64,000 bases of DNA. Origin: Acidobacteriota bacterium (GTDB lineage Bacteria > Acidobacteriota > Aminicenantia > Aminicenantales > Saccharicenantaceae). Position 1 is the stretch's first letter; each line of letters opens with the position of its first letter. Location: assembly GCA_028749115.1 (NCBI GenBank), contig JAQURD010000011.1:1-64000 (forward strand), given 5' to 3'. Under the pieces are notes generated by a model. It had not been told where the DNA came from. It did no database searches and saw only the letters and a program-made list of their open reading frames with translations. Position numbers and translations under genes: made by a program. Positions 5,172-58,014 of the stretch are shown piece by piece.

Positions 5172-5268
5172 CGGGCAGCGAAGAAGGTCTGAATTTTATC
5201 GCTGCAAGATTTTATGGAGAGGCTGAGAATCAATTTCATCTAAATTTTAAATGAGGTCATTTGAAATA

Positions 5269-5298
5269 TTGACAGCCTTGAAATTTATTGACTATAAT
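5269..5298 (+). promoter_or_regulatory. Consensus sigma-70 promoter of the small RNA
   Basis: Perfect TTGACA (5269-5274) and perfect TATAAT (5293-5298) lie 18 bases apart. No protein start follows; transcription would begin near 5305, exactly where the closing stem of the RNA begins. Confidence 0.85.
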
Positions 5299-5304
5299 CA
5301 AATT

Positions 5305-5381
5305 GCTGGCTGGAGAGGGATCCTCCTTAGCCCCGCTTCCTTTTCCTTTGAAACCTTGGCTCCTCACCAGCCAGCCTTTTT
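5305..5381 (+). ncRNA. Small structured RNA with pyrimidine-rich, anti-Shine-Dalgarno loop
   Basis: About 77 nt long. The 5' end GCTGGCTGG (5305-5313) pairs perfectly with CCAGCCAGC (5367-5375). The helix continues past one A/A mismatch with GAGG (5315-5318) and CCTC (5362-5365). The 3' arm runs into C and five T (5377-5381), a typical intrinsic terminator end, so the whole RNA ends in its own terminator stem. The loop is pyrimidine-rich and contains TCCTCCTT (5321-5328), complementary to a full Shine-Dalgarno sequence, then CCCCG and a TTCCTTTTCC tract. It lacks the conserved apical motif of SRP RNA and is too short for 6S or tmRNA. No known family is recognised; a trans-acting translational repressor is an inference. 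Confidence 0.75.
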
Positions 5382-5710
5382 ATAAGCCTGACATTTTGAA
5401 CAGGTTAGTTCTCCAGCCTGGTTGGTAAAAAATAAATCGTTTATTGAATAATGATAAGATGTCGTTGAGGTTAACCTGGAGATTAAGGGCCAGAATATCA
5501 ACTTTTCTCCTTCTTCTTCCTGATCCTGTTTTCATCGACTGGTTCAGGCAAGAGTTTTAAATATTACCGGCCTGGAAGAAACATGCCGCCTGGTAATTTC
5601 CAGATTAAGTTTCGGAGGCGGCAGCCTGATTTCAATAAGGATAACAGGGGTGACGGGCAGTTAATCAAAAATTTATAATTATAGCTGGTTAAACTGATTT
5701 AAGATCCGCC
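5382..5710. other. Intergenic stretch without recognised gene
   Basis: About 330 bases between the small RNA and the 3' end of the next leftward gene. The only structure noted is an inverted repeat, GCCGCCT near 5585 and AGGCGGC near 5617, without a T-run. No open frame of note and no promoter pair were seen. Confidence 0.5.
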
Positions 5711-57985: not shown

Positions 57986-58014
57986 TTGACAAATTTCCTC
58001 TGGCTACTTATAAT
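57986..58014 (+). promoter_or_regulatory. Consensus promoter abutting uppS
   Basis: Perfect TTGACA (57986-57991), 17 bases, perfect TATAAT (58009-58014). The ATG of uppS (58022) is only seven bases downstream of the -10 box, so transcription is expected to begin at or next to the start codon. Confidence 0.8.

Follow-up and report, generated by a model that had tools for sequence, protein, structure and literature searches.

A conserved small-RNA gene candidate of Candidatus Aminicenantes and its family of mostly pseudoknotted, C/U-rich siblings

Introduction

The locus at 5269-5381 of the 64-kb stretch of DNA analysed here (the window) combines a perfect promoter-like sequence with an inverted repeat that encloses a pyrimidine-rich loop, and raises the question of whether it is a stand-alone small-RNA gene and, if so, what its RNA might do. 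A first-pass annotation of the window had read it as a small RNA with an anti-Shine-Dalgarno loop that would repress, in trans, genes with strong Shine-Dalgarno sequences. In the open-licence PubMed Central literature, no paper was found on small RNAs of Aminicenantes.

Results

Layout of the element in the window

Direct reading reproduced every coordinate of the first-pass annotation, and the promoter (TTGACA-N18-TATAAT), the stem, the inner GAGG/CCTC helix, the loop word and the T-run described there are all present (Table 1). Perfect TTGACA-N15-20-TATAAT sequences occur twice in the 64-kb window, compared to 0.02 expected (100 shuffles). The second one is located at 57986-58014; a listed 270-aa ORF begins inside it and resembles undecaprenyl diphosphate synthase (UppS), as judged by eye. 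The putative transcript of the first, called type A below, would probably extend from about 5304/5305 to 5381 (a length of about 71-77 nt).

Table 1 Features of the type A element and its promoter-like boxes in the window.
Feature	Position	Strand	Basis or remark
-35 hexamer TTGACA	5269-5274	+	read directly
-10 hexamer TATAAT	5293-5298	+	spacer from -35 of 18 nt; 6 nt before the RNA stem
Conserved RNA core, type A small RNA	5305-5375	+	covariance model R1 and DNA search
9-bp stem GCTGGCTGG / CCAGCCAGC	5305-5313 with 5367-5375	+	read directly
Family stem P2, 5' arm GCTGGCTG	5305-5312	+	alignment; covariation of P2 in siblings
Family stem P2, 3' arm CAGCCAGC	5368-5375	+	alignment; covariation of P2 in siblings
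Inner stem arm GAGG, type A-specific	5315-5318	+	paired in 27/27 rows
Inner stem arm CCTC, type A-specific	5362-5365	+	partner of GAGG
C/U-rich loop, candidate seed region	5319-5361	+	highly conserved across the order except for a length-variable stretch
Loop word TCCTCCTT	5321-5328	+	read directly
AGCCCCGCTTCCTTTTC block	5329-5345	+	strictest-kept part of the loop; intact in 26/27 type A rows
T-run TTTTT	5377-5381	+	possible terminator tail in this species

The ninth stem pair (G5313-C5367) is G-C in the window and G.A in several other genera; the gap between GAGG/CCTC and P2 consists of one mismatch in the window and of a tandem G.A in other genera. The inner stem itself is invariant in all 27 type A rows aligned, and covariation therefore speaks neither for nor against it. 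The loop word TCCTCCTT has the same sense as the anti-Shine-Dalgarno tail of the 16S rRNA. Folding of 5300-5385 gave z = -2.33 on the forward strand (3/200 shuffles as good) and z = -3.92 on the reverse strand (0/200 shuffles as good); since the reverse strand folds better, folding energy alone cannot assign the strand, and it constitutes weak evidence.

Conservation and spread of type A

A DNA search with a 161-base query in 60 genomes matched 44 of them, that is, 43 of the 59 genomes other than the window's own (the matches in G007 and G011 are partial, as their contigs end there). In the alignment, conservation covers the promoter and a core of 64-73 nt, and does not extend to the flanks. 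The first 14 nt of the core, GCTGGCTGGAGAGG, are identical in the 27 type A rows of alignment A1, which were collected with that very word; the sole exception to the AGCCCCGCTTCCTTTTC block among these rows is L018 (C to T at 5331). P2 shows no two-sided change within type A, and two of its pairs are disrupted in L034. In sequence, the stem is as well conserved as the loop, a point that the first-pass annotation had missed.

The covariance search of stem and loop in relatives, proposed in that annotation as a check, was productive: R1, a model built on the type A core (101.8 bits in the window's own genome), finds type A in 61/94 genomes of the window's order, a count that includes a diverged copy in G043 and the partial contig-end copy in G007, and leaves out G063 and G090, whose R1 matches are siblings on inspection. 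R1 matches were obtained in 64/142 genomes of the class and in 21/396 genomes sampled over the phylum; of the 48 genomes of the class that lie outside the order, G135 alone was matched, weakly and probably by chance. The diverged copy of G043 (L080, 44 bits) carries a C-to-U change in the 5' arm, leading to a U.G pair, and an altered AGCCCCGCTTCCTTTTC block. As a rule, a genome has one near-identical type A copy; G086 has two. Of 15 named records that contain the exact type A pattern, 13 belong to Candidatus Aminicenantes; this pattern allowed gaps of 2-9, and the window, with a gap of 10, places its own genus outside the reach of the pattern. The exact-pattern matches in Azospirillum and Acidobacteriia (L108, L109) fail the model and were rejected. 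The type A pattern is also present in a contig from a viral collection (L253, 126,743 bases; 2254-2321, - strand), a locus which had been chosen by the pattern itself and which reaches only 20.1 bits with R1; it may be a distant member or a chance match.

A wider family with a pseudoknot

The weak R1 matches in G063, G064, G085 and G090 are different RNAs with the same closing stem. The pattern GCTGGCTG-N35-65-CAGCCAGC is present in 85/94 genomes of the order, compared to 2/94 for a reversed-pattern control, some of the single matches being due to chance (e.g. G019, L143). These siblings, grouped as types B and C, share stem P2 (GCNGGCUG/CAGCCNGC), which closes a C/U-rich, G-poor stretch. Nearly all the type B sequences have an arm just upstream that is complementary to the bases following GCTGGCTG, and its best register is the same in 47/52 (one of the 52, L143, being a chance match). 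The resulting helix P1 is a 5' hairpin whose 10-nt loop holds the first P2 arm, making types B and C an H-type pseudoknot: loop 1 measures two nt, the helices have no junction between them, and loop 3 is long and C/U-rich. The window element belongs, as one branch, to a family with several copies per genome and a pseudoknot in most members; this had escaped the first-pass annotation.

In the 51 pattern-found sequences of alignment A4, P2 was unable to vary, as the pattern demanded it; P1 shows two-sided changes at 7/10 pairs. Its ninth pair is UG in 21 rows, CG in 17, UA in 13 and never CA; the presence of U.G, C-G and U-A without C.A indicates the + strand. A sibling covariance model with P1 only (R2) matched 92/94 genomes of the order at E ≤ 0.01 (weakly in G070 and G071), 1 to 15 times each, and recovered the P2 variants GCCGGCUG/CAGCCGGC, GCGGGCUG/CAGCCCGC and GCAGGCUG/CAGCCUGC.

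Covariation was assessed in 94 sequences: the 51 pattern-found ones and 43 fetched model matches above 30 bits (40 fetched regions were hand-picked toward weaker matches and are non-random). An own-genome match of 18.2 bits (L208), an opposite-strand match of 12.2 bits (L219) and a duplicate copy of one locus (L249) were left out. The third pair of P2 takes all four Watson-Crick forms (UA 62, CG 25, GC 6, AU 1), and P1 shows two-sided changes at 9/10 pairs; as the 94 rows share ancestry, these counts do not correspond to independent events. Standard pairs account for 92.3% of the cells (81.3% after shuffling, at most 49.9% when slid), and the covariation score was 0.394 (0.185 shuffled, at most 0.184 slid). 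The other seven pairs of P2 are nearly fixed, with three failing cells (two in L232, one in L245). That these sequences form an RNA family is close to certain.

A local GCUG is able to pair with the CAGC of P2 in 31/94 rows, forming a hairpin that excludes the pseudoknot. Such rows make up 28 of the 31 whose third P2 base is C or G, and 3 of the 62 in which it is U; this distribution may point to an RNA designed to switch between two states, or it may have been inherited from a single ancestor.

R2 (E up to 0.001) matched 90/142 genomes of the class, one of them outside the order (G100), and 28/396 genomes of the phylum sample, of which only G100 and the doubtful G481 lie outside the order. 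The two matches in G100, which belongs to another family of the class, look real (L230, L231); the match in G481 (L232), in which two P2 pairs fail, looks like chance and was rejected. Beyond the phylum, the search used the type A DNA pattern only. In the genomes covered by these searches, the pseudoknot family is so far one of a single order of Aminicenantes plus two copies in G100.

Type A compared to its siblings and the members in the own genome

Type A has P2 in common with the siblings, as well as a C/U-rich interior and the arrangement of the promoter; it has no upstream P1 arm, and carries the GAGG/CCTC helix inside P2 instead. R2 recognises the window element weakly (17.6 bits, E 0.006 over the window). 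Common descent of type A with types B and C is likely, mainly on account of P2. The window's own genome (G000) has two members: the type A of the window, and a type C (G000:C32:281481-281561; L207:1001-1081, + strand; 40.2 bits) with helices P1 GGCUUUCC/GGGAAAGCC and P2 GCGGGCUG/CAGCCCGC; its loop recurs almost unchanged in several other genera. R2 detected no type B in this genome (E up to 1; genome 91% complete), and a third match, at 18.2 bits, looks like chance.

Promoter-like boxes, transcript ends and neighbouring genes

TTGAC is present within 50 nt upstream in 39/40 regions with enough flank (own genome and relatives). A perfect TATAAT lies within 30 nt upstream in 45/53 type A loci compared to 2/140 background windows; with at least five of its six letters it is found within the same distance in 52/53 type A, 63/77 type B and 30/31 type C loci compared to 13/140 background windows (the loci of related genomes in these counts are not independent). 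The box mostly ends 5-7 nt before the RNA start, and 10-13 nt before it in many type A loci. We infer that these elements are transcribed. The T-run that the first-pass annotation had placed after the stem is present in the window, but at least four T within 12 nt past the stem occur in just 21/53 type A loci (21/77 in type B, 4/31 in type C).

The gene downstream of type A is on the opposite strand in 34/47 loci where it is seen, many of them from one genus with the same neighbour; a leader role does not fit this orientation. Type B loci other than B1 and B2 have an opposite downstream gene in 22/35 cases. Type B1 is followed by a same-strand gene of one family in 17/26 loci, two members of which resemble MFS transporters by eye, and this branch may have a cis role. 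Individual examples are L144, L134 and others, where B1 lies upstream of an MFS transporter-like gene; in L134 it also lies downstream of a glutamine synthetase-like gene (proteins read by eye). The largest neighbour clusters differ between types. Mechanically called ORFs of at least 100 aa overlap the element in 10/49 type A loci.

Conservation and the orientation of the neighbours support the earlier proposal that a small RNA with its own gene is encoded here, its stem and its C/U-rich loop both being conserved; the window locus is very probably a real gene.

Known RNAs and coding potential

At the Rfam gathering score the window contains three tRNAs, none of them at the element; below the threshold, two matches were found at the element, both on the other strand (E 0.95 and 7.4). 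Ten type B/C loci gave four matches up to E 1, none overlapping the elements. No Rfam 15 family matches the window element, in line with its earlier separation from SRP, 6S and tmRNA, and the family is absent from the Rfam 15 models tested.

A small protein encoded by the 44-aa or 46-aa ORFs that run across the element was considered and rejected: type A cores (68 to 77 with 4 nt of flank) differ in length by amounts not divisible by three, and the 44-aa ORF opens with an ATG at 5251, ahead of the -35 box. Against this rejection, one frame is stop-free in 27/27 type A rows; at least one of the other two frames is interrupted in 25/27. Coding is unlikely.

Loop words, candidate targets and an Hfq-like protein

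Loop words were counted in distinct sequences (20 of type A, 70 of type B, 29 of type C) from loci pre-filtered at no less than 55% pyrimidine; type A sequences with an altered 3' arm, such as L007, fall outside these counts. CCCC is found in 19/20, 65/70 and 24/29 sequences of types A, B and C respectively, and TCCC in 1/20, 64/70 and 29/29, the window loop being devoid of it. CCTCC is present in 42/70 type B and 1/29 type C sequences, and in 24/27 type A rows of the alignment (L007, L035 and L036 lack it). The anti-Shine-Dalgarno word noted in the window is thus there, without being constant even in type A; absent from 3/27 type A rows, 28/70 type B and 28/29 type C sequences, it indicates that not every member targets the core Shine-Dalgarno. 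G makes up 5-13% of the interior. The sibling loops differ in sequence, and several of them are kept across genera.

The target prediction at ribosome-binding regions suggested in the first-pass annotation gave no enrichment in the window: duplexes of the type A loop with 48 translation starts, script-guessed and a small sample, had a mean of -15.3 compared to -14.4 in 480 control windows (p = 0.09), and shuffled loops equalled the real loop at these starts in 102/200 cases. With this outcome, and with CCTCC not universal, the annotated role as a repressor of genes with strong Shine-Dalgarno sequences is reduced to a plausible reading. The best single start (4398, -29 kcal/mol) belongs to the gene just upstream, HAD-like by inspection; among its relatives, 8/14 starts reached -20.9 or better and 6 did not. 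This gene is not claimed as a target, the best internal control windows reaching -19.7 to -28.7.

An Hfq-like domain was detected in 84/94 genomes of the order, above the curated cut-off in 61 of them; the match in the window's own genome is below it (24.7 compared to 27 bits; G000:C39:192055-192210, - strand). The domain is divergent and often lies in an open frame of 100-180 aa, a size that exceeds the typical length of Hfq.

Discussion

Proposed function and alternatives

On balance, we regard these elements as probably being stand-alone trans-acting small RNAs, in which a near-constant scaffold would carry C/U-rich seeds for purine-rich ribosome-binding sites. The window locus would be a stand-alone gene, the type A member of a Candidatus Aminicenantes small-RNA family; its fold would protect the RNA and offer it to a partner common to the family, perhaps the divergent Hfq-like protein, and the C/U-rich stretch would pair in trans with purine-rich translation-initiation regions, lowering their translation, each sibling carrying its own seed. 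The C-rich and anti-Shine-Dalgarno words of known small RNAs, together with the Hfq-like domain, make trans pairing the leading model. The near-fixity of the type A loop exceeds the need of a short seed, and would also fit protein binding.

More tentatively, the family might be a modular platform, that is, one protein-recognised pseudoknot scaffold with interchangeable C/U-rich seeds in up to about 15 siblings per genome; P1 would be free to drift, and P2 would be fixed almost to the letter save for its covarying third pair. In type C, pairing of the 3' arm of P2 with GCUG may flip the RNA between a closed pseudoknot and an open-seed state.

The same near-fixity of the type A loop, the presence of several siblings per genome that have one fold in common and repeat C-rich words, and the lack of measurable preference for translation starts would all suit an RNA that titrates a protein, its C/U stretch sequestering an Hfq-like, cold-shock or S1-type protein in the manner of CsrB or RsmX/Y/Z. 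We consider this unlikely, as loop sequences differ between siblings and several of them are kept across genera, which a protein binding pyrimidines in general would not require; binding of the CsrA type in particular looks unlikely, the GGA words of type A being confined, by inspection, to the stem and the positions next to it.

Many riboswitches fold as H-type pseudoknots. A cis-acting leader or riboswitch, whose pseudoknot would sense a ligand and control the downstream gene, could draw on this fold, on the same-strand gene family that follows type B1 and on the GCUG-CAGC alternative pairing as a possible switch; the downstream genes on the opposite strand in most type A loci and in type B beyond B1/B2, and the variation of the largest neighbour clusters by type, make it improbable for the family. 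That the locus is only a terminator of the upstream gene, or a repeat or mobile DNA element without RNA function, is very unlikely: it has in its favour the inverted repeat, which in this species is succeeded by a T-run, and the several related copies per genome, but the loop measures about 43 nt, 32/53 type A loci have no run of at least four T, promoter-like boxes adjoin the 5' end, type A is as a rule a single near-identical copy per genome, and both helices covary in types B and C. A functional RNA from the opposite strand, purine-rich, better folding (z = -3.92 compared to -2.33) and potentially able to pair with the 16S tail, can be practically dismissed, given that the promoter-like boxes lie on the C-rich side and that the wobble pattern of P1 fits the + strand.

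Comparison with known small RNAs

The trans-acting model has parallels in three groups of small RNAs. The alpha-r14/NfeR1 ('cuckoo') RNAs of alpha-proteobacteria are trans-acting small RNAs with unpaired anti-Shine-Dalgarno words of the CCUCC type, which in NfeR1 bind target mRNAs; they are described as having three hairpins, with an identical CCUCCUCCC in each and highly sequence-divergent stems (PMC10746234). Compared with them, the present family is similar in having CCUCC-type words in unpaired regions, and different in having one nearly constant stem, different loops, and a pseudoknot in types B and C. The window element contains CCUCC once, and CCUCCUCCC is absent from it. The alpha-r14 RNAs silence mRNAs by pairing at the ribosome-binding site; the duplex energies at the 48 starts of the window were no better than those of the controls. 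In comparison with the alpha-r14 RNAs, in which the seed is constant and the stems vary (PMC10746234), the design is inverted, the loops being the part that differs and the stem the part that is conserved.

LhrC1-5 of Listeria, RsaE and FsrA bind the Shine-Dalgarno regions of target mRNAs through a C-rich word (UCCC), and the LhrC copies, of 111-114 nt, are almost identical to one another (PMC4132741). Several siblings per genome (R2, 1 to 15 each in 92/94 genomes) make the present family comparable to LhrC; unlike the LhrC copies, the siblings here each have a loop of their own, and what they have in common is the stem of the pseudoknot. The UCCC word is common in the distinct sequences of types B and C (64/70 and 29/29), but is found in 1/20 of type A.

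RydC of enterobacteria is described as a pseudoknot small RNA that exposes a 5' seed and whose pseudoknot is tied to Hfq and stability (PMC4337610). In the present family, a pseudoknot fold is indicated by covariation in types B and C; the type A of the window is without the upstream P1 arm. The -10 boxes mostly end 5-7 nt before P1 or P2, which would place the predicted start of the RNA within P1 or, for type A, beside P2; unlike the 5' seed of RydC, the candidate seed would be the long loop.

In this uncultured lineage, the nearly invariant stem provides a direct means of finding a protein that binds the RNA; the family constitutes a natural set for the study of how one scaffold gains new targets. 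Siblings can sit side by side on one strand, mostly about 140-270 nt apart (L213, L214, L215 and L236 in family f1; L141 and L156 in family f6), with promoter-like sequence before several of them. In L226 (1081-1221, - strand), a sibling RNA is adjoined by a sequence that resembles the leader of ribosomal protein L20 below the threshold, with 30.4 bits for a cut-off of 58.7.
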